Positions 1,326-23,310 of a stretch of 26,391 nucleotides of DNA are shown here, in pieces. The stretch spans positions 1 to 26,391 of IMG/VR virus record IMGVR_UViG_3300032156_000564; one strand, 5' to 3'. The stretch is from a virus. Positions within the stretch are counted from its first letter, which is position 1; the number at the start of each line of letters is the position of its first letter. The position numbers and the translations under genes are program-made. The notes beneath the pieces are model-generated. The model was given only the letters and a program-made list of their open reading frames with translations, searched no databases and was not told the DNA's origin.

Positions 1326-1330
1326 ATCGT

Positions 1331-1888
1331 ATGGGGTCCATTTATTCTAATAAGTATATAGAGTCGGAGTTTAGTCCCATCCATCCTGATGTTATTTTTG
1401 GAAAAAATGTTAGGGTTGGGCATTACGTTGTAATAGAGGAAGATTGTGAAATAGGAGACAATTGTTTTATTGGAAATTTTGTCTTTATGAGAAAAGGGAC
1501 AAAGATTGGAAGTAATTGTGTGATAGGGCATGGGACAATTTTTGAAGGATGTTGTACAATAGGCAATCGTGTTCTGATTCATTCTCAATGTCATATTACT
1601 AAAGGTGTAATAATAGAGGATAATGTTTTTATTGCTCCAATGTTTGTAGGGGCTAATACTCCTAAGATTGTCCATGGTAGGGAGTATCCTCTTGTTTTAA
1701 AACCTTATAAAATTAAAAGAGCCGCAAGAATTGGAATAGGGGTAATAGTTTTGCCTGGGGTAATTATTGGAGAGAACGCTTTGGTTGCTGCTGGTTCAAT
1801 AGTAACAAAGGATGTTCCAGACAGAGCAATTGTAATGGGAGTTCCTGCAAAGGTTGTTGGAGGAGTTTCTCAAGATGAGTTGTTATGA
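1331..1888 (+). CDS. Left-handed beta-helix (hexapeptide repeat) acyltransferase
   Basis: This 185-residue protein has successive [I/V]-G-x-x hexapeptide turns from about residue 21 to 100. An extruded loop follows (about 106-130), then a second run of turns ending in AAGSIVTKDVPDRAIVMGVPAKVVGG, read here in pieces. The ending VPAKVV is the hallmark of WbbJ/NeuD-type sugar O- or N-acetyltransferases, which are usually trimers using acetyl-CoA. The start is ATG 1331 because an excellent AGAAGGAGGT site (1313-1322) lies 8 bases upstream; an in-frame upstream start at 1286 would lie inside the glycosyltransferase gene. It probably acylates the sugar handled by the flanking glycosyltransferases. 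Confidence 0.85.
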   Translation: MGSIYSNKYIESEFSPIHPDVIFGKNVRVGHYVVIEEDCEIGDNCFIGNFVFMRKGTKIGSNCVIGHGTIFEGCCTIGNRVLIHSQCHITKGVIIEDNVFIAPMFVGANTPKIVHGREYPLVLKPYKIKRAARIGIGVIVLPGVIIGENALVAAGSIVTKDVPDRAIVMGVPAKVVGGVSQDELL

Positions 1889-1986
1889 AATGTAGATGTT
1901 GTGGAACAAAGATGAAAAATGAGTTCTGGTATTGGGTTTGTCCGTTTTGTGGATGGGCAATTCAACATGGAGAGGTGGGCAAATAA
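1885..1986 (+). CDS. 33-residue micro zinc-ribbon protein
   Basis: This very short gene starts in an ATGA overlap with the acyltransferase stop (1886-1888) and ends with TAA directly abutting the ATG of the radical SAM gene at 1987. The peptide begins MKCRCCGTKMKNEF and continues YWVCPFCGWA, giving an N-terminal Cys cluster and a C-terminal CPxC. This is enough to bind one zinc ion as a ribbon. The lack of any spacing on either side argues that it is translated as part of the cassette. It could be a small partner or metal-binding accessory of the neighbouring enzymes, but that is inference. It shares the aromatic-x-CPxCG-aromatic hallmark with micro zinc ribbons elsewhere in the window. Confidence 0.72.
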   Translation: MKCRCCGTKMKNEFWYWVCPFCGWAIQHGEVGK

Positions 1987-2850
1987 ATGAGAATCTTACA
2001 ATTACTAATTAACAATAAATGTGGTTTGTGTTGCGATTACTGTGTTTCCAATATGAATCAACTTGGAGTCCAAGATGTTGAGACTTTTATTGATAGAATA
2101 GGGATGGATAAGTATGTAGAACATATTGATCGAATATTTGGTAAATACTATCCTATGTCAATGTTGATTGGATCTGGAGAACCTACTGATTATCCAAACT
2201 TTATTGAGTTTTGTAATCATTTTCTTGATCAAAAAAATTCAATGCGTGTTATTTCTAATTTGGAGCATGTTGATCGAATACTTCAGATAAAAGATAAGAC
2301 CAGATTAGAGATTGAGGCCTCATTCCATTTGGATTCTTATTTGAGAAATGGTAAGATTCCAGATGATCTGATAGAAAGATATAAGAAGTTATATGATTCT
2401 GGAGTTCATATCGTAAATGTGATTACTCCATTGTCTCCTCTTGTGTTGGCTAATTATTCAGAATATGCACGTTTGATACAAGAAATTTCTGTTTATGTAG
2501 ATGTGATTTGCCCAATTCAGATGTATCATATTTATCATGGACAAGAATACCCAAAAAGTTATACTGAACAAGAAGCAGTTATGGTTAAAGATATATTACG
2601 AAAATATGGACGTAAACTTCAAGTTGAAGATGTTCGAGATGTTAGTAATACAACATTTTCTAAAGGTAAACTTTGTAGAGTATTTGATTTGGTTGCAATG
2701 GTATCAATTGATGGAGATATATGGCATTGTCAATCTCAACCTCAAATAATACTGGGAAATATTGAAACTTATGATGGGGATGTTTATACTTCTCCACAAC
2801 CTTGCTCTGCTGAGTTTTGTCTTTGTTCTGCTTTTTATGATTCTTATTGA
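1987..2850 (+). CDS. Radical SAM enzyme with C-terminal SPASM-like cysteine cluster
   Basis: This 287-residue protein has the radical SAM signature C12-x3-C16-x2-C19 (NNKCGLCCDYC), which ligates the [4Fe-4S] cluster that cleaves S-adenosylmethionine. The GGEP-type SAM-binding motif appears as GSGEPTDYPNF. The C-terminal part holds five more cysteines (C230, C248, C273, C278, C280), resembling a SPASM or twitch auxiliary cluster domain. Such enzymes modify peptides, proteins, sugars or bases by radical chemistry. It lies between the 33-residue zinc ribbon and an asparagine-synthase-like ligase, all co-directional. The substrate is unknown. The next gene follows after 21 bases that include an AAAGGAGA ribosome-binding site. 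Confidence 0.85.
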   Translation: MRILQLLINNKCGLCCDYCVSNMNQLGVQDVETFIDRIGMDKYVEHIDRIFGKYYPMSMLIGSGEPTDYPNFIEFCNHFLDQKNSMRVISNLEHVDRILQIKDKTRLEIEASFHLDSYLRNGKIPDDLIERYKKLYDSGVHIVNVITPLSPLVLANYSEYARLIQEISVYVDVICPIQMYHIYHGQEYPKSYTEQEAVMVKDILRKYGRKLQVEDVRDVSNTTFSKGKLCRVFDLVAMVSIDGDIWHCQSQPQIILGNIETYDGDVYTSPQPCSAEFCLCSAFYDSY

Positions 2851-2871
2851 AATAAAAGGAGACATAAATTG

Positions 2872-4056
2872 ATGAATAATATATTAGAACAATGGAGACA
2901 TAAAAAATCTTGGGGATTAACTTTCCCATTTTGTCCAATTTATGTTTCAAAAAAGACTGGAGAAAAGGACATTTTTTTAACCAATCTTCTAAGTAAGGAA
3001 GATCGGTTAACTTTGAGTTTACGAGATTCAGGATTTAATGAAATAGGAGTGGATTGGTTGTCTGGTGAAATTCCATCTGAGTATCAATATTTGACACAAC
3101 CTCAAGCCAGAATAGAAGGGATTGCCCCTGAACATCTGGCAAGTCTTCTCCTTCAAAGAATCTATCAATATTTTATTTCTGTTTGGGACAGTTCCAAATT
3201 TCATATCGTCCTGACTGGAGGAGGTTTAGATAGTAGAATATTATGTTATGTTTTAACTTTGTTAAGAGAGAAATTGGGTCCAAATTGGATTGGGGATATT
3301 CATTTCCGATGTTGTGAACCAGAAAGCCCTATATTCAGAAAACTTATGGAAAGACAACAATGGCCAGAAGGTTGTTATTCTGTTTATAAAGAAGGTCGAA
3401 TCATGGAGAAAGATTATTTTGAAGATTTATACAATTTTGAAGACAACGTTAATGCCTTTCATCTAAGTCATTTGAATTTCTATCATGATTTAGAAAAATA
3501 TCTAAATCTGAAGTTTTCAGATGTCCAGGTTGTGTCTGGAAATGGTGGGGGGGAAATATTTGATTACCCTTCAAGAATGTCGCAAATAGACCCAAATAAT
3601 CCCTTTGCCAATTTGAAAAAATACTTTGAAGTTGGGAGATTTAACTTTTTATATGACTATATAAAATGGGGTGATATTTTACTTCCTTACTTATCATATT
3701 CTTACTTGGATTTGGCCTTTAGAACTCCTAAAAAACTTATGGATCAATCCATAAAGGTTGATGGAGTTTCTGGATTAGATTTCAATATCAAAAAGGTGTC
3801 TACTGGTTTGATGCGAATTGAGATGTTAAAACTTCTTGGAGATGATCTTCCGTATTACCAAGGACATTTTTATAACACCAAAATTTCTGAATCCAAACGA
3901 GCCTATGTAAAAGATGCCTGGCTCAAATCTCGTTTCTACAATGATTTTAAAGATGTAAAGGAAGTTTCTGAAGCTACACCACAAACCATGAATTGGCAAA
4001 ATTTGGGTTTAGATAATCAACTTTATAGTTTAGCCACCGTTTATCAAGGGATATAA
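2872..4056 (+). CDS. Asparagine-synthase-type ATP-dependent amide ligase, no glutaminase domain
   Basis: About 394 residues. The PP-loop that binds ATP is seen at about 115-121 (LTGGGLDSR), and the second nucleotide/Mg motif of the AsnB family at about 222-230 (SGNGGGEIFDYP). Family members adenylate a carboxylate and then form an amide. Ordinary AsnB starts with Cys2 and an N-terminal glutamine amidotransferase domain. Here only about 110 residues precede the PP-loop, and they lack the Cys2 start, so a free amine or ammonia is the likely nucleophile, as in lasso-peptide cyclases and beta-lactam synthetases. A TTG at 2869 is an alternative start; ATG 2872 has better codon identity and 10-base spacing to GGAG. 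The next gene begins two bases after the stop. Confidence 0.78.
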   Translation: MNNILEQWRHKKSWGLTFPFCPIYVSKKTGEKDIFLTNLLSKEDRLTLSLRDSGFNEIGVDWLSGEIPSEYQYLTQPQARIEGIAPEHLASLLLQRIYQYFISVWDSSKFHIVLTGGGLDSRILCYVLTLLREKLGPNWIGDIHFRCCEPESPIFRKLMERQQWPEGCYSVYKEGRIMEKDYFEDLYNFEDNVNAFHLSHLNFYHDLEKYLNLKFSDVQVVSGNGGGEIFDYPSRMSQIDPNNPFANLKKYFEVGRFNFLYDYIKWGDILLPYLSYSYLDLAFRTPKKLMDQSIKVDGVSGLDFNIKKVSTGLMRIEMLKLLGDDLPYYQGHFYNTKISESKRAYVKDAWLKSRFYNDFKDVKEVSEATPQTMNWQNLGLDNQLYSLATVYQGI

Positions 4057-4057
4057 A

Positions 4058-4864
4058 ATGAATATTTGTGCTTTGGTTCCTACTTGGAGAAGAAGAAAAA
4101 TAACCATAGAAACAATAAGACAGATTCTTGATCAGACAACCCCCCCAGACAAAATAATAGTTGTTGGAAGTTGCTATGAAGATCGAATGGTTTCAAATAT
4201 TACTGGAGTTGGTTATTTAGAAGTTCCAAACGAACCATTGGGAGCAAAAGTCCAAGCGGGAATAGAATATTGTAGAAGATTTAACCCAGATGGTTTGTTG
4301 TTGTGCGGTTCAGATGATTGGTTATCCTCTAACTGGATCGAGGTGCTTTCCCCTTATCTGAATGACTATGACCTTATTGGATGTAATACTTTGTATATAA
4401 TGCATTGTTCTAAACAACACCCTTTTCAAATAGGTCGATGCTCTTATGAAGGAACTAAAAGAGAAAAAGAGCCAATGGGGCCAGGAAGATTTTTAAGTAG
4501 GAGAATTCTTGATAAAATAAATTGGAAAGTTTATCCTTCTAATATAGAGAATAATCTTGACGGAAATAGCTTTAAAATCTTATTAGATAATGGTTGTAAA
4601 ATTTGGCTTGAGACTGGAGACAACGTAAAAATTCTTTCCCCTAAAGGAGATTGGAATGTGATAAATTCATGGGACAATATTGTTCTATATAGGAGGATAA
4701 AAGAAATTATAAAAGACCCAAAACAATGGTTAGAAGATAATTTTTCAAATGTTTCAGAAAAACTATATAGGATGAATATATATATTGAATGGATTGAAGT
4801 TGACAATGGATTAAAATCAAACTTACCCACCCAAATTAAAAATTCTTTCCCATTAACAAGATAG
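4058..4864 (+). CDS. GT-A fold family 2-like glycosyltransferase
   Basis: This 268-residue protein starts MNICALVPTWRR, the first strand of a GT2 nucleotide-sugar domain. The sequence TIRQILDQTTPPDKIIVVGS gives the typical helix and second strand. GSDDW at residues 84-88 occupies the place of the DxD metal and UDP-sugar site. The C-terminal third is rich in Trp, Asn and Lys and has no membrane helices, so the enzyme is probably soluble. It ends the plus-strand cassette and begins two bases after the ligase stop. With the GT-B enzyme upstream it would provide two sugar-transfer steps. The acceptor is not recognisable. Confidence 0.7.
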   Translation: MNICALVPTWRRRKITIETIRQILDQTTPPDKIIVVGSCYEDRMVSNITGVGYLEVPNEPLGAKVQAGIEYCRRFNPDGLLLCGSDDWLSSNWIEVLSPYLNDYDLIGCNTLYIMHCSKQHPFQIGRCSYEGTKREKEPMGPGRFLSRRILDKINWKVYPSNIENNLDGNSFKILLDNGCKIWLETGDNVKILSPKGDWNVINSWDNIVLYRRIKEIIKDPKQWLEDNFSNVSEKLYRMNIYIEWIEVDNGLKSNLPTQIKNSFPLTR

Positions 4865-9679: not shown

Positions 9680-10291
9680 TTAGTATTTACTCCAAATGAT
9701 TTTTTTGTATAGTTTTTGCCATTCTCCTCTATTAGCATTAGCTTTAGAATTGCAAGAATTACATAATGTAATTAAATTGAATTGAGAACAACCTTGCTTA
9801 TCATAATTAATATGATGGATAGTTAGCTTTTTTGTTTTATAACTACAATAGGGATTCTGACATTCGTTATTATCTCTATTCTTTATAAAACTTTTGAGTT
9901 CATCCGTAAAGTTTGGAGAATACGGAAGAAAAGATGATCCATCGTTCCAACTTGGATTTTTCTTTCCTTTCATTCGTTTTCCATGTTCTGGGCGTTTTTT
10001 ACCTTTTTGAGATTCGGATATTCTTTCACAAGTTTCCCTTGAATGTTTCTTATCTTTCATCCCAGATATACGCCCTTTTAGAGATGCTCTCATTTTTTTC
10101 CGAGTTTCTTCTGAATGATGTTTGTCTTTCCAATAATCATGTTTACCTTTAGATTTTTCTCGAACTTCAGGACGTTTCATAGGATTATTTTCTCCACTCA
10201 TTTCTGGACGTTTCTTTCCAAACATAGGATTTTTCTTCCCCAACATTCGTTCACTTTGTTCAGGATTTTTCTTTCCTTTAGGCCAGCCCAT
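9680..10291 (-). CDS. NUMOD3-HNH homing endonuclease (copy 1)
   Basis: This 203-residue protein has residues 1-115 full of short Lys/Gly-rich NUMOD3-type repeats (for example HHSEETRKKM, SKGK, LKGR, MKGKKNP), which bind DNA in homing endonucleases. The C-terminal HNH nuclease has C144-x4-C149, the catalytic H159-H160 (LTIHHINYD), N172 and C177-x2-C180. It should cut a specific site in a related phage lacking the gene, spreading itself by repair. It sits between the gp46 gene and a small zinc-finger gene, close to gp47. Its C-terminal 90 residues are nearly the same as those of the endonuclease at 14524-15174. Confidence 0.9.
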   Translation of the reverse strand: MGWPKGKKNPEQSERMLGKKNPMFGKKRPEMSGENNPMKRPEVREKSKGKHDYWKDKHHSEETRKKMRASLKGRISGMKDKKHSRETCERISESQKGKKRPEHGKRMKGKKNPSWNDGSSFLPYSPNFTDELKSFIKNRDNNECQNPYCSYKTKKLTIHHINYDKQGCSQFNLITLCNSCNSKANANRGEWQKLYKKIIWSKY

Positions 10292-10639: not shown

Positions 10640-11757
10640 TTGAGGCTGTCTTCGTAAACACTTATCCCCATTTCTGTTAATTTTTCTAAATTCAAATTCC
10701 CTTGGTTTTCCTCAGCATAATGGATTATGATTTCTTTGTCTTGTTCTTGTTTGCTTTTCCCAATCAAATGATTTGGTATTTTAGATTGTGAGTGGAATTC
10801 GATTTGGGTTTGGAAGACCACCACCTTTGCCCCAAGTTTTTCCAATTCGCTTTTTATCTTTATTCTATCATTATTGGAAATATCCTCTTTTCGGACTTTT
10901 CCAATAATTCTTACGTAATTGTTATTTACTATTGATTTTAAATCTTCTTTCTTGGGGAAATCGAGTCCGTAGTATTCCAAAGACACAAATTTAGAATAGT
11001 TCAATTGTAGAGGTTTTAGCTGTTTGGTATGGCTGTTGTATAACCAAATGTATCGGTCTGAGTCCTCATCTGAAAACCTGATAGGATATGGGCTACCTAA
11101 AAATTGTATTCCATGAACCTTTTGAGGTTTATGTAGATGGCCTGAAATATAAAGTATATCAGGATCAGTTTTCAAATCCCAAATACCGTCTATTCGTTTT
11201 CCAGTTTCATAGACAGCATCTGGAATGTCTTGGTGTATACAAATGATAGTTGGCTTTATTGGTTGTTTATGAATTTCTATCCAATTTCTTCTAAAATCTT
11301 CCCAATAGCGTCGGAAAGGAATAAAGTAAACGTCACCATCCCATTCAGCTTTATTTACAAATTTAAAGCTCTCCCAATCAAATAATGATAACGTGGGGTA
11401 GTCTTGAATATTGAAGTCATGATTTCCCATTGAAGAAACAAACTTCACCCTACTGGTTATGTCTTCCATTCTTGTTTTGAATTCAATTAGTATATGATTG
11501 GGAACACGGTCTTTAAGTTCAAAAACATCTCCCAAATTATATACTTGGTCAATTTCTGGGTGCTCTACAAGAATTAAAGTTATTTGGTCTAATATGTTTA
11601 GTCCTTCTGCCAATCTGGTATTTAGTCCAGTCTTGGGGTCTATCCTACTAAATTCTTTGCGATCGTGCAGGTGCAGATCAGAAAAGAATATAGTATCTGG
11701 ATTGATGCTAATGAAAGGGTCTTCTTCCACAAGGCGTTTTTTAATTATTTTGGTCAT
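10636..11757 (-). CDS. 47: SbcD/Mre11-like recombination nuclease (T4 gp47-like)
   Basis: This 373-residue calcineurin-type phosphoesterase shows all the metal-binding motifs in order: D27-L-H29, G76-D77-V-F, G111-N-H113-D, H175-Q-D and G206-H-L-H209. A cap and coiled-coil-binding C-terminal region follows. The protein should be the Mn-dependent nuclease subunit paired with the gp46-like ATPase, trimming double-strand ends to give 3' tails for RecA. The ATG overlaps the stop of the HNH gene upstream (ATGA). In many phages the gp47 and gp46 genes are neighbours; here they are separated by a zinc-finger gene and a homing endonuclease gene. Confidence 0.93.
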   Translation of the reverse strand: MTKIIKKRLVEEDPFISINPDTIFFSDLHLHDRKEFSRIDPKTGLNTRLAEGLNILDQITLILVEHPEIDQVYNLGDVFELKDRVPNHILIEFKTRMEDITSRVKFVSSMGNHDFNIQDYPTLSLFDWESFKFVNKAEWDGDVYFIPFRRYWEDFRRNWIEIHKQPIKPTIICIHQDIPDAVYETGKRIDGIWDLKTDPDILYISGHLHKPQKVHGIQFLGSPYPIRFSDEDSDRYIWLYNSHTKQLKPLQLNYSKFVSLEYYGLDFPKKEDLKSIVNNNYVRIIGKVRKEDISNNDRIKIKSELEKLGAKVVVFQTQIEFHSQSKIPNHLIGKSKQEQDKEIIIHYAEENQGNLNLEKLTEMGISVYEDSLN

Positions 11758-12200
11758 CGGGATAATTCCTCTATAGTTTTTTCCAGAAAGTCTTTGGTTA
11801 TTTCTGTTTTGTTTTCGTAATGGTCTAAAAGATATTCCAAATCTTTTGACCTATATTTACGCATAAACTTATACATAAAACAAAAAGACTTGTGGGCAGA
11901 AATTCTCCCAAATTTATGATGGGTTGAACAAAACAAAATCCCGTTGTGTGGGTTGAAACGTAATGTCTTGTTAGTGGAATAGGATTCAATATGATGGGCA
12001 TTTAGTTTTTTAATCTTTTTACAATTGGGAGCTTCACATATTCCCATAGCCTGTTTTTTAATAGTTTGTCTCCATAGGCTTAGAGCTTTATTTGCTAACT
12101 TTTTAATTTCCTTTAGCTCTTTGGCTGAAGGTTTCTTTTCTTTATTTTTCTTCCATCTGTTGAATTCTTTTTCGAGTTTGGGGTTGGTTGGGTTTTCCAT
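11754..12200 (-). CDS. HNH endonuclease (148 residues)
   Basis: The N-terminal 50 residues are highly charged and helical. The HNH core has C55-x4-C60, the HH pair at 69-70 (KLNAHHIES), asparagines in FNPHNG (about 83-86) and C91 plus H94-H95 (CSTHHKFG). The order matches the beta-beta-alpha-metal nuclease fold. The arrangement resembles NinG/Rap-type phage recombination nucleases as well as free-standing homing endonucleases, and I cannot separate the two. GGAGACTTTAA stands before the ATG. It overlaps the gp47 gene by four bases, which favours a role, or parasitism, within the recombination module. Confidence 0.8.
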   Translation of the reverse strand: MENPTNPKLEKEFNRWKKNKEKKPSAKELKEIKKLANKALSLWRQTIKKQAMGICEAPNCKKIKKLNAHHIESYSTNKTLRFNPHNGILFCSTHHKFGRISAHKSFCFMYKFMRKYRSKDLEYLLDHYENKTEITKDFLEKTIEELSR

Positions 12201-12404: not shown

Positions 12405-13457
12405 TCACTTTCTTTCTTTGGGCTTACGTTCCATTTTGAGTTTTTGTTCTATTTCCTCCCATGTATCAATGACTTGTTCTCTTAATTGATCTTTGTATCC
12501 TTTGTCTTCAATGTATTTGATCGCTCCTTCAAGTGATTGCCAATCCTTATCAATGGCTGGATATTTGGTTGCTCCAGTCATTTTCTTAATGTATTCCAAG
12601 TTAGCTCGAATGTCATCTATTCCATACCCAAATACTATTCTTACAGGAGCTTCACGGTATGGGTCATCTACAGTGCTCTTTACCACTTTTGCAGTAACAT
12701 TAATTCCAATAACCTTTTCTGCTTTGACTTTGTCTGTAATGGAAGTTTGTCGTTTAATGTATCTGGATGGGAATTCAAATCCCACCTTCAATCTCAAACT
12801 GCTATAAAACTTTACGGCATGGCCACCCGTGGATTGCTCTTTTTCTCCCATAGTGTTCATGGTATCTCGGATTTGGTTAGTAAGAACGATTAATTTATCA
12901 TTGGAAGAAATCTTACGGCATGTTTTTCTTAATCCCTCACTAAACTCCTTAGCTCGTCTCATTCCCATCTTATCTTCATCACCCATTTCCATATCTGTAG
13001 ATAGGGCTGCAATAGAGTCTGCTCCAAATACGCTTACTACAGAAGAGTCTGTTTCCCATTCCCAAATAGCGTCAAACAACTCCTTGACCGTATCGGGTCG
13101 GAAGTAATCTTCTTTGCTTACCAAATGTAATCCATAGATTTCACAATACTCTTTGTCCAACCGTGCTTCTGGATCAGCGAATTTGGTCTTTCCACCTTTG
13201 GCTTGGACATGAGAGCCTATTTCTGCCAGTATGGCAGTTTTTCCTGTGCTCTCTGGGCCAAAGATTTCAACTATAATCCCCGCAGGTATTCCTCCCCCTC
13301 TGCGTCTGCCCCCACTTATAGCAAGATCAAGTAGCGTTGAACCAGTGGATATGATTCTACTATAATCCAAAGGTTTTTTACGCTCAATGGGTTTAAGAGA
13401 TGTTTCCTCAACTTGTTGAACTGCTTCGTCTAATTCAGACTTGCGTTTTAAAAGCAT
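12405..13457 (-). CDS. recA: RecA-type recombinase
   Basis: This 350-residue ATP-dependent strand-exchange protein has a Walker A sequence (GPESTGKT, 67-74) identical to the bacterial RecA consensus. The catalytic Glu is in KFADPEARLD (E97), and the Walker B region is VVSVFGADSIAAL. The DNA-binding loop 2 region STGGHAVKFYSSLRLKV is clearly RecA-like. Length and motifs are closer to bacterial RecA (about 350) than to T4 UvsX (391). It should coat single-stranded DNA made by the gp46/47 complex and drive recombination-dependent replication and repair. The AAAGGAGTTAAAAG before ATG 13457 is a strong start signal. The basic C-terminus (KMERKPKERK) differs from the acidic tail of E. coli RecA. 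Confidence 0.95.
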   Translation of the reverse strand: MLLKRKSELDEAVQQVEETSLKPIERKKPLDYSRIISTGSTLLDLAISGGRRRGGGIPAGIIVEIFGPESTGKTAILAEIGSHVQAKGGKTKFADPEARLDKEYCEIYGLHLVSKEDYFRPDTVKELFDAIWEWETDSSVVSVFGADSIAALSTDMEMGDEDKMGMRRAKEFSEGLRKTCRKISSNDKLIVLTNQIRDTMNTMGEKEQSTGGHAVKFYSSLRLKVGFEFPSRYIKRQTSITDKVKAEKVIGINVTAKVVKSTVDDPYREAPVRIVFGYGIDDIRANLEYIKKMTGATKYPAIDKDWQSLEGAIKYIEDKGYKDQLREQVIDTWEEIEQKLKMERKPKERK

Positions 13458-13470
13458 CTTTTAACTCCTT

Positions 13471-13683
13471 TTAGAATGGAATGTCATCGTCTGATTCTAA
13501 TCGTTCTCTACTACGTAATGAGGAATCATCATCCTCAGTGGAGGGGTTAAGTCTCCTTGCATCATCTGGGAATGGATTTTCTCCACATATTTTCCTACCC
13601 ATCTCTTCAAGCAATTGAATAATCTTATCCAACTTTTTTAAGAACATTCTTTCTTTGACTGTTAGGTTAGTATTTTTTTCCAT
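13471..13683 (-). CDS. Small protein ending in a bacterial SSB-type C-terminal tip
   Basis: This 70-residue protein has a helical N-terminal half (TVKERMFLKKLDKIIQLLEE), a Pro/Asp-rich linker, and an acidic end finishing with DDDIPF. That hexapeptide is the same as the conserved C-terminal tip of E. coli SSB, by which SSB recruits repair and replication proteins. There is no room for an OB-fold, so this is not a normal SSB. The gene lies directly upstream of recA in transcription order and overlaps the end of the 5' nuclease gene by 22 bases. The likely role is a tail-mimic adaptor or decoy for host SSB-binding proteins; this is inference from the terminal motif and context. Confidence 0.7.
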   Translation of the reverse strand: MEKNTNLTVKERMFLKKLDKIIQLLEEMGRKICGENPFPDDARRLNPSTEDDDSSLRSRERLESDDDIPF

Positions 13684-14522
13684 TCTTCGTAATTCCCTTT
13701 CTTTAAAAAAGATTTAAGCCCATACTCAAGGCAAACATCCTCAAAACATTTAAGACTAAATTCGTCTTTAAACAATGAAACTGGTAAAGTCCGTTCATGT
13801 GGAAGAGTAACAAGGGGTAAATTTGTCGAATACATTTTTTCGGATAGTTTAGAAATTATGTCCGCCTTTTTGCCTTGTTTAATTTTTCCATTAAACCATT
13901 TTACTGCTGTTTTAATTCCTATTCCTGATATCCCCTTTACATTATCCCCGTCACAACCAGCTAATGCTTTGATCTTTGGCCAATCGAATGGTTGAATACC
14001 AAACTCTTTTACGAAATCATCCCCTGTATATAGCTTTTTGGTTTTGGGATTAAACATACATACGCTTGGGGATAGGAGTTGGTATAAATCATTATCAACA
14101 GACACAATTATGTATTGGTCATGATCTTTAAAAGGTTTAAGAATAGATTTGGTTATTATTGCAATTATATCATCTGCTTCAATCCCAGCTTGGATGAAGT
14201 TATTTACGAATCCGATTTTTGGTAAAATTTGAAACCTCAAAGTGGTAAATTGGGGTCTGGAAGTATCTAATAATTCCAATAAATCTTGGGTCATTTTTTT
14301 GTCTTTTCGTTTGTAATCGGGGTAAACGTCTTTACGATAGGATTTTTTACTATCCCATGCAAATATGAATTTTGGGTAGTCAAAGAATTTAGCCAATTGG
14401 AAAATTTGGTTTAAAAATCCAAAAATAATTCCTGTAGATTTTTCATCAAACGACAATTCCCCCATCGTATATACAGAACGATAGCATAAGAAATGAGAGT
14501 CCACTATGATAGTAGGTTTCAT
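13662..14522 (-). CDS. 5'-3' exonuclease / flap endonuclease
   Basis: This 286-residue FEN-family nuclease is like T4 RNase H, T5 D15 and the N-domain of Pol I. Metal-binding acidic residues are visible in order: D8 (IIVDSHFL), D57 (FAWDSKK), E115/D117/D118 (GIEADDII), D143/D145 (SVDNDLY) and D191/D193 (ALAGCDGDNVKG). A helix-hairpin-helix DNA-binding element (GISGIGIKTA) follows. It should remove RNA primers and flaps from Okazaki fragments, the function missing from the separate polymerase gene at 19912-21183. The upstream homing endonuclease gene ends two bases before the ATG, and its final codons supply the GGAG used as a ribosome-binding site, 11 bases upstream. Confidence 0.93.
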   Translation of the reverse strand: MKPTIIVDSHFLCYRSVYTMGELSFDEKSTGIIFGFLNQIFQLAKFFDYPKFIFAWDSKKSYRKDVYPDYKRKDKKMTQDLLELLDTSRPQFTTLRFQILPKIGFVNNFIQAGIEADDIIAIITKSILKPFKDHDQYIIVSVDNDLYQLLSPSVCMFNPKTKKLYTGDDFVKEFGIQPFDWPKIKALAGCDGDNVKGISGIGIKTAVKWFNGKIKQGKKADIISKLSEKMYSTNLPLVTLPHERTLPVSLFKDEFSLKCFEDVCLEYGLKSFLKKGNYEEWKKILT

Positions 14523-14523
14523 C

Positions 14524-15174
14524 TTAATATTTACTCCAAATGATTCTCTTATAGAATCTTTTCCATTCTCTTTTATTGAAATTAGCTTTTGAATTACAAG
14601 ATGTGCACAGAGTAATTAGATTAAATTGAGAACAATCCTGTTTGTTATAATTAATATGATGAACAGCTAATATCTTTGACTTATAATCACAATATGGATT
14701 CTGACACTCATTGCCATCTCTATCTTTAATAAACTGTTTGAGTTCTTTTGTAAACTCTACAGAATAGGGAAGAAAAGAAATTCCACCTTGCCAATTAGGG
14801 TGTTTTTCTCTTTTGTTAGATATACTCATTTTTTGTTTTGCTTCTTTTGAATGATGTTTCCCTAAATGGAATTGTCTAAGTCTTTCTTTGACCTCTTGTG
14901 ATCTTTGTTTTCCTAAATTGGCTTGTCCTATTTTTCTTTTGTGCTCTTCTGTAAGTTTTCTCCCTAAATTATATTGATTGCCTTTTTTGGATTCCCCCAT
15001 CTTTTTTCGAGTTTCTTCTGAATTATACTTCCTATGATTTTTACTCATTTTTCTTTTACAATTGTCTGAGGCTTTCCTTCCTCTATTCCAATGTCCTTTT
15101 ATCCAATTACCATATGGGGCTATTTTATCGCAACCACATCTACAGAAATTTAGTTTTATAAGAGTTTTTCTCAA
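14524..15174 (-). CDS. NUMOD3-HNH homing endonuclease (copy 2)
   Basis: About 216 residues. I choose the TTG at 15174 as start, because GGGGGAAG lies 8-9 bases upstream and the upstream gene then ends one base before it; an upstream in-frame ATG at 15243 would force a 68-base overlap. The N-terminus has a short Cys cluster (FCRCGCDK), common in this family. NUMOD3-like repeats follow (NSEETRKKM, LTEEHKRKIGQANLG, HSKEAKQKM), then the HNH core with NECQNPYC, AVHHINYN and LCTSCNSKAN. The C-terminus is nearly identical to the copy at 9680-10291. It lies between the 5' nuclease gene and an 85-residue gene. Confidence 0.88.
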   Translation of the reverse strand: MRKTLIKLNFCRCGCDKIAPYGNWIKGHWNRGRKASDNCKRKMSKNHRKYNSEETRKKMGESKKGNQYNLGRKLTEEHKRKIGQANLGKQRSQEVKERLRQFHLGKHHSKEAKQKMSISNKREKHPNWQGGISFLPYSVEFTKELKQFIKDRDGNECQNPYCDYKSKILAVHHINYNKQDCSQFNLITLCTSCNSKANFNKREWKRFYKRIIWSKY

Positions 15175-15175
15175 T

Positions 15176-15433
15176 TTATGCTTCCCCCACGGGTTTCCAA
15201 TCCACTTTTCTAAACAAGGGTGGCAATTCTGGAAAAGTGTCAAACTCTATCCAAAAGTCCCAACCATCAAAAAGGGATTGTGGAACACAACTAATAATTT
15301 TGAAGTGATGTTTTTCTGAAATTTCTTTCATAACTATTTGAGGATGTCTGTGTTCCCCGACTTTGTCAGCATCTATCATATCAAAAAATACCCTTGCTTG
15401 TTTTGGGTTGTCTGGATTAATTCCTCTTATCAT
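15176..15433 (-). CDS. 85-residue protein of unknown function
   Basis: The sequence (MIRGINPDNPKQARVFFDMI...) has a His-rich centre (GEHRHPQIVM, EKHHF) and an aromatic, proline-rich C-terminal third (DGWDFWIEFDTFPELPPLF). It looks like a small alpha/beta fold, but I recognise no family. There is no clear Shine-Dalgarno sequence before ATG 15433. Instead a 10-bp hairpin ends 8 bases upstream of the start, so translation may be controlled by RNA structure (see 15442-15538). Confidence 0.58.
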   Translation of the reverse strand: MIRGINPDNPKQARVFFDMIDADKVGEHRHPQIVMKEISEKHHFKIISCVPQSLFDGWDFWIEFDTFPELPPLFRKVDWKPVGEA

Positions 15434-15547: not shown

Positions 15548-16693
15548 TTATTTCCTTCCCCCTATTGGCCCACGTCTTGCTACGGTAATGGGCTTAGCAA
15601 CTCCCCCTCTTGTGGCTAATACGGGTTTTTGGACAGATGATTGCCGTGTTGGTTTGGGGGTTTCTTCCTTTACCTTTAATTTGTCCAGTCTGTCTTTTTC
15701 GGCAGAGCAATCATCCCAAACCTCACAATCTCCACATTTTTCTAAATCTTCGCAATCGGTTCCAAATACTCCCCCAATAGGGCAAGTCCCTTTAGGTGTG
15801 GGGGTTGGGCGAGTTGATTTCCGAACAGGTGGTTTCTCTTCTTCAACGGGTGGGGTTATTTCCCCTCTTCGTAAGAGTCTTGTGGGTGGAGGTGGAGGAC
15901 CTTCAATAACAGCCTCCTCTATGGGTGGTGGAGATTCTTCTTCTTCTTTCTCTGGGGGTTTTCCGAAGAACGTTGTGTAAAGTTCTTCATAGTCTGGGAT
16001 ATGGATTATTTGATCCAACTGATGGGCTAACCCCAAAACATCATCCGTGATCGTGTACCCCTCTCTGGCGACAAATTGATGGCCCAAAAACTCAGTGTTA
16101 TTCTTTGAGCCTTTTCTTTCAAATTGGATTGAACGCCCTTCATCTGGATCTGCAAAGGCAACATACCCACCCCCAGAACCCCCACGGGCTGGAACTTTAG
16201 AGATAGCCATTAATTTCTTTTCCATAAAGAAATGGGCTACATCCCAAACTTGAATACCTTTGGCCTCCTCTTTTGGGTCATCATAACAAAGCCAATTGTA
16301 GATGGATCGGCGTTTGGGGTAAAGACTTTTAACCAAGTCCTCATCATACTCTTCCTCATTCCGCAACTCTTCACGATACTCACAAATTGGACATTGTTGG
16401 TTGTAGTTGCGGGAAGGACAAACGAAACTGTCCTGATTGACTCCGACATTCCCATGAACCCAAATGTCTAAAACATAAGTCCATTGGCCTTCTTTCGTAT
16501 TGGGATCACGGTTTCCAGCTTTATAGGGGATAATGTCTCCTATGTGCTGGCCTTCTTTACATTTCCACTTTTGTAGCCCTTCAATTTCCTCAAAAATATC
16601 TCCATACATCCCCGTATCGTCACGGCGGTTAAAGGAGTCTTGAGTCTTTTGTAGAAGAGCCTGCTTCATTTCTTTTCTTCGGTCTACTGGCAT
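15548..16693 (-). CDS. 32: gp32-like single-stranded DNA-binding protein
   Basis: This 381-residue protein has an N-terminal OB-fold region with the zinc site of T4 gp32: H80, C92, C101 and C104 (NQQCPICEYREEL) follow nearly the spacing of gp32 H64/C77/C87/C90. The basic N-terminus (DRRKEMKQALLQK) corresponds to the cooperativity arm. After residue 245 comes a long Glu/Pro-rich low-complexity linker, then a second Cys cluster (C304, C314, C320, C323, C329) and a basic end (ARRGPIGGRK) in place of the acidic tail of gp32. GGGAGGAGAACG precedes ATG 16693. It should coat single strands during replication and recombination with RecA and the UvsY-like protein. Confidence 0.85.
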   Translation of the reverse strand: MPVDRRKEMKQALLQKTQDSFNRRDDTGMYGDIFEEIEGLQKWKCKEGQHIGDIIPYKAGNRDPNTKEGQWTYVLDIWVHGNVGVNQDSFVCPSRNYNQQCPICEYREELRNEEEYDEDLVKSLYPKRRSIYNWLCYDDPKEEAKGIQVWDVAHFFMEKKLMAISKVPARGGSGGGYVAFADPDEGRSIQFERKGSKNNTEFLGHQFVAREGYTITDDVLGLAHQLDQIIHIPDYEELYTTFFGKPPEKEEEESPPPIEEAVIEGPPPPPTRLLRRGEITPPVEEEKPPVRKSTRPTPTPKGTCPIGGVFGTDCEDLEKCGDCEVWDDCSAEKDRLDKLKVKEETPKPTRQSSVQKPVLATRGGVAKPITVARRGPIGGRK

Positions 16694-17695: not shown

Positions 17696-18328
17696 TTAAT
17701 CTAAAGTTTCCATTTTAAATTTTTTAGCCTCTTCCAACACAAGATTTACATATGGATCATATCTTTTATTATAGGCATTTTCTGGGCCAGCGTTATAGGC
17801 ACGTAGGGCTGGTTTCCAATCTTTGTATTGTTTATGTAAATCCCCCAGGTAGGTTAACCCCAACTTAGCGTTTACCGAAACATCATAAACCTGATTTATT
17901 TCTTTACCAAAAGATGGATGATTTGTATAGGCTTTTCGTAATATGGGCATTACTTGTGTCAATCCCTTTGCCCCTTTATTACTTATTGCTTCAGGATTAA
18001 AATTGCTCTCAATACTTATCATAGCCAAGGCTATTGAGATGGGGACTTGGTTTTGGCCTAAAATAACCTCTCCCAAATCCAAGGCTTGCCCTACGGTAAG
18101 GGATTTGCTACGAAGGAGGGCATAGAGTTGTTGTTTAGCCACGAGGGAGTCGTGTTGTTGTTTAAAGAATTTATAAGATTCTTTTATAACAGCATTTTCC
18201 CATCCTTGGAACCAGTAACCAAAAACAATAACTGTAAGCAAAAGAACCCCTATGAGGTGAAATTTTAAAGCCCTGTGTTTGATCTCTTTTACAATCCTCA
18301 AATGGTCATTTTTCATTATAACAGTCAT
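17696..18328 (-). CDS. Membrane-anchored lytic transglycosylase (SLT family)
   Basis: This 210-residue peptidoglycan-cleaving enzyme has a hydrophobic signal anchor at 24-40 (HLIGVLLLTVIVFGYWF) after a basic N-terminus, which would place the catalytic domain outside the cytoplasmic membrane. The SLT motif is clear: the catalytic Glu is E107 in MISIESNFNP, followed by SNKGAKGLTQVMP and, near 177-182, AYNAGP. Such proteins serve as endolysins or as cell-wall-opening factors. AAAGGGGGTAAAC precedes ATG 18328. It is unusual to find it between replication genes and without a holin beside it. Confidence 0.88.
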   Translation of the reverse strand: MTVIMKNDHLRIVKEIKHRALKFHLIGVLLLTVIVFGYWFQGWENAVIKESYKFFKQQHDSLVAKQQLYALLRSKSLTVGQALDLGEVILGQNQVPISIALAMISIESNFNPEAISNKGAKGLTQVMPILRKAYTNHPSFGKEINQVYDVSVNAKLGLTYLGDLHKQYKDWKPALRAYNAGPENAYNKRYDPYVNLVLEEAKKFKMETLD

Positions 18329-18761: not shown

Positions 18762-19709
18762 TCAAATTAACGTTGCCATATAACAAGACACCACCAACCC
18801 GCTTTTTCCAGTGTCGTAGTAGTTATTGGAAAACTCAGCCATAAGCAAAGCTATTCGTTTTCCATCCTCACCCTTACATCCCAACAATACTGAGGATAAA
18901 TAGCCCAGAATGGCTCTACGGGTTTGTTCGGGGTCTTGGTCAAAGGTTTTGAGCATCGATGATAGCCCAGCCCATTTCTTAACTCCCCCCTCTTTCTCCA
19001 TTAGCCTTCGACAAACATCAATAATCTTAACATCATCGTCCACAATAGTGGCTATGGCTTCGAGTTGGTTTTGCTCTCCCTTGATGTCTATGATCTGATC
19101 TAATCTTACTAACAATTTACGTGGGCAACCTTCTGAGGCAGAGATTAAAGTGTTTTGGACTGTTTCGGATAAAGTTACTTGTTCATTGTCTAAAACCCAT
19201 TTTAGTAATTTTCTCATTTCTATGGAGTTTAGAAGTGAGACTATATATGTAGTGCAACGGTTTTTAATTGTCTTTATAATCTTTTCTGGATTGGTGGTGC
19301 AAAGTATATTATAGATATGAGATGGAGTGTCTTCCAAGAATTTAAGCAAAGCCTCTGCGGCAGCACCAGTTATCTGATGAGCCTCATCAAACAAATAAAC
19401 CTTTACTTTTCCAGACAACGGAGCATAAGAAGCCCTTTGAATCACGTCTCTGATAGTATCAATTCCCCTTGTATTAGCAGCATTTAACTCATGAAATTCT
19501 AAATCCTCACATCCCAACCCTTTAGCCAACAACCTTGCTAACGTGGTTTTTCCTGTGCCAGATGGGCCAAAGAATAAGAATGAATGTGGTCTTCCCTCTT
19601 TCCTATCTATAATTGATTGTAATGATTGAACAGTAGCTTTATTCCCAATCACTTCATCAAACTCAATTGGACGATACTTGATATGAAATGGGGTTTTTTC
19701 TAAGTCCAC
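18762..19709 (-). CDS. 44: Sliding clamp loader AAA+ ATPase (gp44/DnaX/RFC-small-like)
   Basis: This 315-residue protein has the RFC-type opening (PFHIKYRPIEFDEVIGN), Walker A GPSGTGKT (48-55), Walker B VYLFDEAH (104-111), sensor 1 around LCTTNPE and an arginine-containing NRC motif near 151 in place of SRC. It lacks the zinc-binding cysteines of bacterial DnaX, so it resembles T4 gp44 and archaeal RFC small subunit. It should load the clamp encoded at 23314-24387 onto primed DNA. The start is GTG 19709 behind AAAAGGAGAACCAA. Just upstream a 6-bp inverted repeat (GATTAA/TTAATC, 19728-19744) overlaps the previous stop and might regulate translation. Confidence 0.92.
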   Translation of the reverse strand: MDLEKTPFHIKYRPIEFDEVIGNKATVQSLQSIIDRKEGRPHSFLFFGPSGTGKTTLARLLAKGLGCEDLEFHELNAANTRGIDTIRDVIQRASYAPLSGKVKVYLFDEAHQITGAAAEALLKFLEDTPSHIYNILCTTNPEKIIKTIKNRCTTYIVSLLNSIEMRKLLKWVLDNEQVTLSETVQNTLISASEGCPRKLLVRLDQIIDIKGEQNQLEAIATIVDDDVKIIDVCRRLMEKEGGVKKWAGLSSMLKTFDQDPEQTRRAILGYLSSVLLGCKGEDGKRIALLMAEFSNNYYDTGKSGLVVSCYMATLI

Positions 19710-19738: not shown

Positions 19739-19930
19739 TTAATCTGATATTTTTTTACCAATAAAATTTTTCCAATCAAAAAGAGCATTTTGAATGGTTC
19801 TTTGAAGTGTTATAGCCTCATTTGGAGTTATCAATAAAATTACACTTTGTTTTGATAATTTTCCAAAACATTCTATTTCCAACCCCTCTGGTTTTATTTT
19901 AACTCTTGTTATCATTTTTTCACTATCCAT
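19739..19930 (-). CDS. 63-residue protein of unknown function
   Basis: The product (MDSEKMITRVKIKPEGLEIE...) looks like a small beta-alpha fold ending in a basic helix. Two starts are possible: ATG 19930, with GGAG 13 bases upstream, or ATG 19915, which forms an ATGA overlap with the polymerase stop like many couplings in this block. It sits between the polymerase and clamp loader genes. No family motif is visible. Confidence 0.58.
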   Translation of the reverse strand: MDSEKMITRVKIKPEGLEIECFGKLSKQSVILLITPNEAITLQRTIQNALFDWKNFIGKKISD

Positions 19931-21183
19931 GGTTGATCAACTTCTCCACTGCCATACTCAGCTTTTAACGGAACAATGATCCAAGGAAAAGTCCTTCTTG
20001 TCCCTTCCACCATCATCCACTCTACATTTTTTCTCCAATCATCTTCTTCCTCTGGTTTAATGTCCATAAATATTTCATCGTGGATTTGACCTGGGATTTT
20101 GGTTTCCCAATTTTCTTCTTTTCGTATTCGATTCAATTCAATACAAGACCAAAGTAATAGATGAAAGGCTGTGCCTTGGACTGGAGTGTTAACAATTTGG
20201 TTGCGGGACAATACTCCTATACATCTAAATCCCGTAAGCATTTCAATATAACCATTTCTATAATAGGAACGTATTAACTCTTCTTGCCATTGTTTTAAGA
20301 TAGCAAATTTTTTCCAAAACTCTCTCTCAGCCAATTCCACTCTTCGTTCCGAAAGTTTTGGATAATCTGAGGCTAATGAGGCATAAATACTCTTATAGTA
20401 GCTCCCATATGCCAAAGCAAATACAAAGCTATTTTTAGCATCAAATCTACTTGTTCCCAAGTAGTCAGCCCATTCTTGGTGAGGGTCTTCATCATTATTT
20501 ATCATTCTTATTAGTTCTGGATCATGGCTATAACAACCCATGATTCTTACTTCATGACCCCCATAGTCTGCCCACCCCAATTTGTTTCCAGGTCTGGGGA
20601 TAATGCCTGTTCTGACTAATAATCTGCTTTCTTCATCGTGAGCAGGAATGTTTTGGAAGTTGGGGGAATCTGAGCTTGATCTGTAACTGCGTGGGATATG
20701 AAGATTGAAAGAGGGATGTATTTTCCAAAGCCCATCACTATCTAATGCTGCTAAATCTTTTATACCACCTATGTAAGTTGTCCTGTTCTTTTCGAGCTTT
20801 TTGACTTTTAGAATTTCTTTGGTGAATGGGGTTCCTATTTTCTCTAACACAACATCATCAGATGAGATATTTTCTTTCTCAGTAAATTTTATAGGTTTCA
20901 TTCCCATAAAGCGGAAGAAGAGTTTGGAAAGGTCTTGATGACTAACATGGAGTTTGGTATCGAATGAAATTATGTCTTTGCCCGTTTTAAGTTTAAACAT
21001 TTGGGCTGGTTCCATCCCGCTTATCTTTTGGACTAAAAATTGAACTCTTTTGGTCAATTTTTCGTATGTTTTTTCATAATACTTTTTATCAACACAAATC
21101 CCTTCATCTTCCATATCGGAAAAACAAAGTATTCCCTTATGAAATAAATCATAGGCCTGTTTGAGTGTGGGTTTAAGTTCCAA
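19912..21183 (-). CDS. Family A DNA polymerase, polymerase domain only
   Basis: This 423-residue protein contains the Pol I polymerase core. PNFQNIP is at 174-180, motif A with the catalytic Asp D206 (GWADYGGHEVRIM), motif B at about 246-260 (RFDAKNSFVFALAYG), and motif C with H368-D369-E370 (QIHDEIFMD). There is no 5' nuclease or 3'-5' exonuclease domain. The 5' nuclease is at 13662-14522, and the exonuclease is in the overlapping upstream gene. The start is TTG 21183 behind AGGTGG. A TAA immediately upstream closes the frame. The start region (LKQAYDLFHKGIL...MEDEGICVD) is normally an internal part of phage Pol I, so this is a split polymerase. Confidence 0.9.
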   Translation of the reverse strand: MELKPTLKQAYDLFHKGILCFSDMEDEGICVDKKYYEKTYEKLTKRVQFLVQKISGMEPAQMFKLKTGKDIISFDTKLHVSHQDLSKLFFRFMGMKPIKFTEKENISSDDVVLEKIGTPFTKEILKVKKLEKNRTTYIGGIKDLAALDSDGLWKIHPSFNLHIPRSYRSSSDSPNFQNIPAHDEESRLLVRTGIIPRPGNKLGWADYGGHEVRIMGCYSHDPELIRMINNDEDPHQEWADYLGTSRFDAKNSFVFALAYGSYYKSIYASLASDYPKLSERRVELAEREFWKKFAILKQWQEELIRSYYRNGYIEMLTGFRCIGVLSRNQIVNTPVQGTAFHLLLWSCIELNRIRKEENWETKIPGQIHDEIFMDIKPEEEDDWRKNVEWMMVEGTRRTFPWIIVPLKAEYGSGEVDQPWIVKK

Positions 21184-22432
21184 TTATTTCCACCTGTCTT
21201 TCATATAACATCCCTGTAAACAAAGCATCCAAGGCGTTGTATTCTAATAATTGTTTAATAGGGACTTCATGCATACGATTGAATCCACTTTCATTCGGCT
21301 TTTTAAATGGAGTTATATCGTCTCCGTATTCGTAGCCCCAATTTATAAACACTTGAAAATCTAATCCTGTAAACTTACGATGTTCATTAATAATATGGCT
21401 ACAAACCATTGTATCATGAACCCAATTCTGTGTTTCCACCCCAATTATTCTTCTGCCCCAACTCTCTTCCATTTGAATGTTTTGGGCCACTTTGGGTATT
21501 TTAGGCTCAGAGAGAATTTGTTTCCATAATGATTCTATTGAATCGAATTGTTTATCACTCCAATGATTTGGATAACTATATGGAAAAGAATAGCCATAAT
21601 TAGGCCATTCCAATTCTATCAGACTAACTCCAATTGTCCAGATATGATGGCCTGGTTTATAGGGTCTTAACCCAGAAGTTTCATAATCAATCGCAATTTC
21701 GATAGTTTCTAAAGATTGTTGGTCTAAAATTGATCTTAAAAAGTGGATAACCTCTTTAAAATCTGTTAATGGTTTACAAAACTTTTTCCAATCCATAAAT
21801 TCAGGAGATCCACGTTTTAGCTGATCTAAAGCCCATTTCAGACCTTGTTGGAATTTGGGTTTAAAATCAGCGTTACGAACAGCGAAAGAGGGGTGGTATA
21901 ATGGAATGATCCACGCCCCTGTTTGGGTATCTGGAATACATTGTCGGTTCCACCGTCCAATACTCAAATCTGAAGTAATAGGCTGTGAACGCCCTATGAA
22001 GAAGGCTTCTACTGCTTTGGCTCCGAATAGAAAAATGAATCTTGGATTTATTTCCTCTACGTTTTTCCGCCATCGTTGTTCACAAGAGAAAATCTCTTCT
22101 TTAGTGGGTGGGCGGTTGTTTCCATCTTTATCCGTAGGTCTGCAACCCAAAATGTTTTGTTTATAAAAATCCCTATCTAATTCAAATCCATTTGCAATCA
22201 GCGTTTCTCTTAACAAGTCTCCAGCCTCTCCAACGAACTGTTTACCTTGTAAATCCTCATTTTTCCCAGGAGCTTCCCCCAACATTAAAACTTTAAGTTG
22301 TCCTTCACCTGTGTAGGGCATTTTTGGGCTGTTTACTTGTTTATACAATCCGCACACCTCGCAATCGAATGCTTTACGATTGACTTTGGGTTTAGTTACT
22401 TTGGGAATATCTATCTCAAAAAAACCTTTCAT
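21173..22432 (-). CDS. Fusion of family 4 uracil-DNA glycosylase and Pol I-type 3'-5' exonuclease
   Basis: About 419 residues from ATG 22432, chosen for its ATGA overlap with the upstream stop; ATG 22459 is possible. The N-terminal half is UDG family 4-like: iron-sulphur ligands C24, C27, C97 and C117, GEAPGKNED (52-60), FVGEAGDLL and the active-site H180-P-S. The C-terminal half is a DnaQ-type proofreading exonuclease with D249-Y-E251 (Exo I), N318...E322 (Exo II) and Y398-x3-D402 (Exo III). It ends 11 bases inside the polymerase gene. Together the two genes equal one UDG-exo-pol polypeptide, a layout I recall for SPO1-type polymerases. Uracil sensing may be structural or catalytic. Confidence 0.85.
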   Translation of the reverse strand: MKGFFEIDIPKVTKPKVNRKAFDCEVCGLYKQVNSPKMPYTGEGQLKVLMLGEAPGKNEDLQGKQFVGEAGDLLRETLIANGFELDRDFYKQNILGCRPTDKDGNNRPPTKEEIFSCEQRWRKNVEEINPRFIFLFGAKAVEAFFIGRSQPITSDLSIGRWNRQCIPDTQTGAWIIPLYHPSFAVRNADFKPKFQQGLKWALDQLKRGSPEFMDWKKFCKPLTDFKEVIHFLRSILDQQSLETIEIAIDYETSGLRPYKPGHHIWTIGVSLIELEWPNYGYSFPYSYPNHWSDKQFDSIESLWKQILSEPKIPKVAQNIQMEESWGRRIIGVETQNWVHDTMVCSHIINEHRKFTGLDFQVFINWGYEYGDDITPFKKPNESGFNRMHEVPIKQLLEYNALDALFTGMLYERQVEIIGT

Positions 22433-22638
22433 ATCAACTCTTTTTCCATTGCTAACCATTCAGGGATAACTACAGCAACCATTCGTCTCTCTTTTTTCTC
22501 AATGCCTTCGATTTGCGATTTTGGAATCCAGACTTCTTTTTTACCATCAAACAAAAGCATTGCCTTATCAGTTTCATACTTAATCTGGCCTGTTATCTCT
22601 ATATAGTTTTGGTCCACTGAACGAATTAGTTTAGGCAT
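22429..22638 (-). CDS. 69-residue protein of unknown function
   Basis: The start is taken at ATG 22638 (MPKLIRSVD...), with GGAAG just upstream and an 8-base overlap with the zinc-ribbon gene stop; a GTG at 22668 would lie well inside that gene. The sequence (ITGQIKYETDKAMLLFDGKK, VWIPKSQIEGIE) looks like an SH3- or OB-like small beta barrel with a C-terminal helix. It is coupled to the UDG-exonuclease gene by an ATGA overlap. A role with the polymerase is plausible from position only. Confidence 0.6.
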   Translation of the reverse strand: MPKLIRSVDQNYIEITGQIKYETDKAMLLFDGKKEVWIPKSQIEGIEKKERRMVAVVIPEWLAMEKELI

Positions 22639-22782: not shown

Positions 22783-23310
22783 TTATACCTCCTTTCTTTT
22801 AAGTAAATGTCCCCAAACCTTACCATTACAAATTTTCCAAACTTGACAGTTAGATGTTCTAAATCTTTTACTTAGAATTCCGGTTTTAACCCCTTGTTGG
22901 TGGAACCTTCTAATCTCAAAGACTTCCCGTTCAGTAAGTCTTGCGTTTCCGTTTTTTTCACCTTTTCGATCTTGCCTAAGATTCCTAAGTCTACCATCCT
23001 TTTTCATATGGCACGTCCTGCACAACCACTCATAATCAGACACGTCTCGTTTGTATTGTTCCGAGATATTTGCCAAATCATATACCTTTCTGATCTTACA
23101 ACGTTCACATAAATCAGGTTTTATTTTACGGTTTTTAACCCACTCGTGAACCGCTGCGTAGCCGACTTGATCCCCTTTCCATTGACCGTTTTTCTGGCCG
23201 GAGTTAATTCCTTTATAGCAAAAGCGTTCCCTCCCGAATTTATGAATTCTCATATGGTTACTAAAACTTTTTCGATTATCAAATTCCCTTCCATCAATCG
23301 AGCATTTCAT
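22783..23310 (-). CDS. HNH homing endonuclease with HTH tail
   Basis: This 175-residue protein has residues 1-25 resembling a degenerate C2H2 finger (MKCSIDGREFDNRKSFSNHM...). The middle is an HNH domain with CERC, LANISEQYKRDVSDYEWLC and CRTCH. The C-terminus is a helix-turn-helix DNA-binding segment (ARLTEREVFEIRRFHQQGV, then KICNGKVWGHL), typical of phage homing endonucleases. GAAGGAGAGTG precedes the ATG, three bases after the clamp gene stop. It differs in architecture from the NUMOD3 copies. It should target a site in or near clamp or polymerase genes of related phages. Confidence 0.87.
   Translation of the reverse strand: MKCSIDGREFDNRKSFSNHMRIHKFGRERFCYKGINSGQKNGQWKGDQVGYAAVHEWVKNRKIKPDLCERCKIRKVYDLANISEQYKRDVSDYEWLCRTCHMKKDGRLRNLRQDRKGEKNGNARLTEREVFEIRRFHQQGVKTGILSKRFRTSNCQVWKICNGKVWGHLLKRKEV

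Follow-up and report, generated by a model that had tools for sequence, protein, structure and literature searches.

SSB tips and comparable systems

The tips of bacterial SSB form a hub that brings some 17 bacterial enzymes to ssDNA. T4 UvsY and bacterial RecO are small recombination mediators that work between SSB and the recombinase. The SSB-tip pocket of DnaG can reportedly be blocked by small competitors. SSB-interacting proteins have a pocket for the terminal Phe of the tip, with a basic lip and ridge, and removal of this Phe abolishes binding (PMC10164576). The affinity of a single tip is micromolar, around 3 µM for RecG (PMC10164576). In phage HK620, the SSB tail NDYPPF draws the phage RecA-like annealase Sak4 to ssDNA (PMC5928155).

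The window, meaning the whole stretch of 26,391 nucleotides analysed here, is a 26 kb virus record with a minus-strand replication and recombination module. One gene of this module encodes a protein ending in ESDDDIPF, which is referred to as the tip protein. Its last six residues are identical to those of E. coli SSB-Ct (DDDIPF) and stand behind an acidic flexible linker, as in that protein. Unlike in bacterial SSB, the tip is found on a separate 70-aa protein that is predicted to be helical and to have no OB fold. It shares with the HK620 SSB the setting of a phage recombination module and a tail proposed to bring a partner to ssDNA (PMC5928155). In contrast, the HK620 tail is part of the SSB itself, whereas the tip of the window is separate and the SSB of the window is gp32-like and tipless. 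The tip protein is also small like UvsY and RecO, and its gene adjoins recA, but it has no sequence match to them and bears a ligand instead of a pocket.

The tip gene

The tip gene lies at 13471..13683 on the minus strand and has a coding signal; its translation is MEKNTNLTVKERMFLKKLDKIIQLLEEMGRKICGENPFPDDARRLNPSTEDDDSSLRSRERLESDDDIPF*. The codons for DDDIPF, residues 65-70, occupy 13474..13491 on the same strand and are followed by TAA at 13471-13473. The first-pass annotation had described a 70-residue protein with an exact SSB tip at this place, and its coordinates, strand, length and sequence all match. The in-frame codon score of the gene is 0.30 bits per codon, within the 0.22-0.39 of 12 window genes, and the remaining frames of the ORF have negative codon scores. 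Its start codon is inside the 5' nuclease gene, with an overlap of 22 nt. The ribosome-binding site of recA comes immediately after the stop codon (TAAAAGGAGTTAAAAGATG) and comprises AAGGAG at 13465..13470 on the minus strand. As this site abuts the stop codon of the tip gene, a single operon is implied, and translation is possibly coupled. By its codon score, its start overlap and its stop at the recA ribosome-binding site, the ORF behaves as a genuine gene.

The DDDIPF end is not a chance match. DNA that encodes DDDIPF followed by a stop codon occurs once in the window and in none of 100 shuffles. Given the composition seen in proteins of the module, [DE]{3}[ILV]PF has a probability of about 1.2e-6 at one given C-terminus.

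The replication module

The module contains a clamp, two polymerase-I-like halves, a clamp loader, a gp32-like SSB, a 5' nuclease, the tip protein, a RecA/UvsX-like protein, SbcD, and SbcC. The 5'-3' nuclease, which is of the flap-endonuclease type, is encoded at 13662..14522 on the minus strand (PHROG 107, E 2.9e-29), and the last 22 nt of its gene overlap the tip gene. The RecA/UvsX-like recombinase (recA) is encoded at 12405..13457 on the minus strand and matches the UvsX-like PHROG 97 (E 5.1e-49). These two matches flank the tip ORF, so the earlier placement of the gene between the 5' nuclease and recA stands.

The gp32-like SSB (15548..16693, minus strand) matches Pfam PF08804 with 34.9 bits, above the curated gathering cut-off of 26.8. 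It has a basic C-terminus, ..RRGPIGGRK, and no tip, in agreement with what had been said of it before. The idea that the tip protein was split off from the C-terminus of this SSB is ruled out, because the SSB has its full length and the same kind of end as its tipless relatives. The clamp loader (DnaX/RFC-like; 18762..19709, minus strand) is also tipless in the window; in some relatives, the equivalent protein has DDIPF at its C-terminus.

Among named phages, those closest to the window that have a module of this kind are Edwardsiella phage ZHS, Vibrio phage MAR10, and members of Nanhaivirus, with about 30% identity. Those relatives that occur in genome assemblies are mostly on short MAG contigs of unrelated taxa (Ferroglobus, Pacearchaeota, Gammaproteobacteria) and thus do not point to one host.

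Predicted structure and family matches of the tip protein

An AlphaFold2 model of the tip protein comprises one helix and a low-confidence tail, with no strands and a mean pLDDT of 72. The model was run on the single sequence without an alignment and is thus weak evidence, though it agrees with the sequence. The N-terminal helix is predicted at residues 9-33 (13585..13659, minus strand) and is amphipathic; it may be a docking or dimer part. Its confidence is a block pLDDT of 93 and 88 over residues 11-30. Residues 34-64 (13492..13584, minus strand) form an acidic, low-confidence linker in the model. Any similarity of the helix to an interaction domain is undetectable.

The tip protein has no match in the families of PHROG, NCBIfam or PADLOC. 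It does not match the SSB families of PHROG, Pfam and NCBIfam, nor any UvsY-like or RecO-like family in these three collections. Judged as a bacterial-type SSB, it has the acidic (I/L)PF tip (ESDDDIPF) but shows no indication of the OB fold. The initial view that the protein has no OB fold is thus consistent with both the missing SSB family match and the model of a helix at 9-33 with a tail. DUF4083 was rejected as its family because the Pfam score is under the cut-off. RNA-polymerase sigma region 1.1 was rejected as a relative of the N-terminal part, as the PDB phmmer hit (E 0.21) is at the level of chance. A defence-system identity was likewise dropped, since PADLOC gives no match.

The 5' nuclease-recA junction in relatives

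The relatives comprise about 240 loci of uncultured viruses obtained from alignment-based scans. No homologue of the tip protein was found among the ORFs and DNA of these loci (phmmer/tblastn), in 50,697 phage records (tblastn), or by a pattern-based scan of 2.9 million viral contigs. The closest group consists of L099 and its near-copies L324-L330, whose 5' nuclease is about 45% identical to that of the window. In this group the 5' nuclease gene directly overlaps recA, no gene separates the two, and the tip protein is absent there. The same overlap without an intervening tip protein is present in L323. The tip protein is therefore a lineage-specific addition, as it has no homologue in the relatives and the nearest junctions do not contain it.

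A different arrangement occurs in L322, where an unrelated 62-aa ORF (L322:4862-5050) is located at the junction and starts inside the nuclease gene. As this ORF shows, the junction takes up differing small genes and is a spot for small-gene insertion. No [DE][ILV]PF terminus occurs in several long records of relatives, among them the L099 record over its full 75 kb. Given this and the lack of the tip protein in the nearest relatives, the function of the tip is dispensable in the lineage, and the tip is an option and not a necessity for such phages. Several [DE][ILV]PF pattern matches in the whole records of relatives were discarded, as the genes are implausible.

Clamp loaders and SSBs with a tip in relatives

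The SSB-type tip is found in the relatives on 9 of 157 distinct clamp-loader C-termini and on 3 of 129 distinct C-termini of the gp32-like SSB. The remaining module proteins, namely RecA, the nuclease, the clamp, the polymerase, SbcCD, and others, carry it on none of about 580. The enrichment on clamp loader and SSB has a Fisher P of 1.4e-6, a value that ignores shared ancestry. The tip-bearing clamp loaders (DnaX/RFC-like) are encoded at L026:158-1123, L030:3673-4644, L031:4157-5128, L039:3218-4156, L073:3137-4150, L342:857-1828, L364:145-1116, L377:650-1615, and L392:906-1871. Their ends are ..RKKDDDDIPF, ..EGLSDDIPF, ..TTEDDIPF, ..DQDDDIPF, ..SEDDIPF, ..SESDIPF, and ..KGDVPF. The tip is an appended tail, and tipless relatives stop where this tail starts. 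Two more probable carriers are an SSB-like protein in L195 and, in L402, a partial ORF that precedes recA on its upstream side.

The tip-bearing clamp loaders of L026, L030, L039, L073, L342, L364 and L377 share with the window the same module and the same docking peptide. In contrast, the tip of the window is on a free small protein and not on the C-terminus of the clamp loader. The SSB end is basic in all clamp-loader-tip records checked, and the clamp loader is tipless in the SSB-tip records. Mutual exclusivity of the carriers was not retained as evidence; there is no double-carrier record, but only about 0.2 are expected from so few cases.

A maximum-likelihood tree was made from 102 clamp loaders with the last 12 residues removed. 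A single subclade of 15 rows contains all tip-bearing clamp loaders, whose tips need at least 3 changes there, and the window is outside it. The tip of the window was thus most likely gained separately. The tip was thus gained on different carriers, comprising the clamp loader, the SSB, and the free protein of the window.

Some clamp-loader genes of the relatives have in-frame intein-like insertions, located in the P-loop in L078:2819-5089 and at the DExx motif in L127:2968-5187.

DDDIPF ends in other phages

The wider sample covers 80 of the viral contigs in which DDDIPF is followed by a stop codon. The carriers among these matches are mainly SSB-like, but three of them are SF2 helicase-like proteins and four belong to PHROG 1811. 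The helicase-like proteins with the exact tip are encoded at L228:4836-6524, L262:942-2774 (ResIII/Helicase_C by Pfam), and L270:3136-4845. PHROG 1811 consists of uncharacterised small helical proteins of about 73 aa from cyanophages and pelagiphages. Loci of this family are L201:2619-2846, L215:1276-1497, L226:2980-3207, L258:1958-2179, and L316:5001-5222.

The PHROG 1811 protein of Pelagibacter phage HTVC033P ends in DDDIPF. The tip is missing in the cyanophage members examined and in two other members, some of which are from pelagiphages. The tip protein of the window resembles the pelagiphage proteins as a small helical protein with the DDDIPF end that is seen in HTVC033P and four viral contigs. 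However, the two have no sequence relation, and the PHROG 1811 profile does not match the tip protein (hmmscan). Small tip proteins that lack an OB fold thus occur elsewhere, and the tip is labile on them.

Proposed role and alternative explanations

The tip protein is proposed to be a small adaptor through which a phage fork with a tipless gp32-like SSB obtains the host-SSB docking peptide in trans; a probability of about 0.5 is assigned to this reading. The helical N-terminal part would dock on a phage fork component or self-associate. The disordered acidic tail would present DDDIPF to the SSB-tip pocket of host RecO, PriA, RecG, RecQ, DnaG primase, or the chi subunit. A fit into this pocket is predicted because the tip is identical to the known ligand. 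Phage ssDNA that is coated by the tipless gp32-like SSB would otherwise not draw such host proteins to the phage forks, and the adaptor would restore this link in trans. The first-pass annotation had taken the tip to be an SSB-type docking peptide, and this is well supported by its exact identity, by the tipless phage SSB, and by the same tip on clamp loaders and SSBs in the module of relatives. Its supply in trans is plausible. Recruiting and blocking are not separated by sequence, and the presence of the tip on fork proteins of relatives leans to recruiting.

A free tip protein could also act as a decoy or inhibitor: by filling the SSB-tip pockets of enzymes such as exonuclease I, RecQ, RecO, PriA, or a helicase-nuclease that serves in defence, it would block repair, restart or defence in the host. 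Such a role would suit a small soluble protein that has no OB fold and ends in an exact host-type tip, and small competitors are said to be able to block SSB-tip pockets, for example that of DnaG. However, at the micromolar affinity of a single tip (3 µM for RecG, PMC10164576) a monomeric decoy would need high expression, and the gene is part of a replication operon. Since relatives attach the same tip to clamp loaders or SSBs at the fork, where local presentation is expected, recruiting fits better than bulk competition, and the decoy is considered unlikely. Alternatively, the tip may act within the phage as a mediator on its own proteins, above all the downstream RecA/UvsX-like recombinase, like a loader of the UvsY/RecO type or the HK620 SSB tail on Sak4. 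The tip gene adjoins recA with probably coupled translation, and there is a precedent in a phage SSB whose tail recruits a RecA-like phage protein (PMC5928155). Yet close relatives have the same RecA beside the same 5' nuclease without any tip, the tip of relatives is more often on the clamp loader than on the product of a recA-adjacent gene, and a UvsY-like or RecO-like family match is lacking. This role is therefore judged improbable.

The tip may also have no tip-dependent function, either as an accident in a small, rapidly evolving ORF where the junction is variable, or as the remnant of a lost SSB. The lack of homologues and the unrelated 62-aa ORF at the L322 junction are in line with this, as is the exact tip at the end of phage proteins that serve other roles, for instance the SF2 helicases. 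It is nevertheless regarded as very unlikely, given the chance of about 1.2e-6 per C-terminus for [DE]{3}[ILV]PF, its absence from the 100 shuffles, and a codon signal that equals that of real genes. The N-terminal part is moreover predicted to be helical and not an OB remnant.

Beyond the adaptor of the window, the SSB tip may be a portable docking tag in gp32-type phages, a generalisation that is tentative and put at somewhat less than even odds. The tag would be placed on the clamp loader, the gp32-like SSB, or a free small helical adaptor, and would plug the host SSB-interaction network into a replisome whose SSB is unable to recruit it. In its clamp-loader form, the topology would be reversed when compared to bacteria, where chi of the clamp loader holds the pocket and SSB the tip. 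The docking device itself is known; what is new is that the tip is separated from ssDNA binding and is present on different replication proteins of one module. No description of a tip protein without an OB fold, a tip-bearing clamp loader or a phage SSB-tip mimic was found in the open-access literature searched, the coverage of which is incomplete. If the proposal is true, a peptide that recruits partners can work apart from ssDNA binding, as a tag, and the tag would show which enzymes of the host these phages depend on or have to block.

Other features of the window

The polymerase-I-like enzyme of the window (19912-22459) consists of two overlapping ORFs, an N-terminal half with a UDG-like part and an exonuclease region, and a polymerase half. 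In named relatives such as MAR10 and ZHS it is contained in one ORF. Four HNH-endonuclease-like ORFs are dispersed in the module (9680-10291, 11754-12200, 14524-15243, and 22783-23310) and by eye are probable free-standing homing endonucleases. A lytic transglycosylase with an SLT domain and a hydrophobic N-terminal segment is present inside the replication module at 17696-18328. A plus-strand cluster at 351-4864 comprises two glycosyltransferase-like proteins, a hexapeptide acyltransferase, and a radical SAM-like protein, and is a possible glycan or modification cassette.
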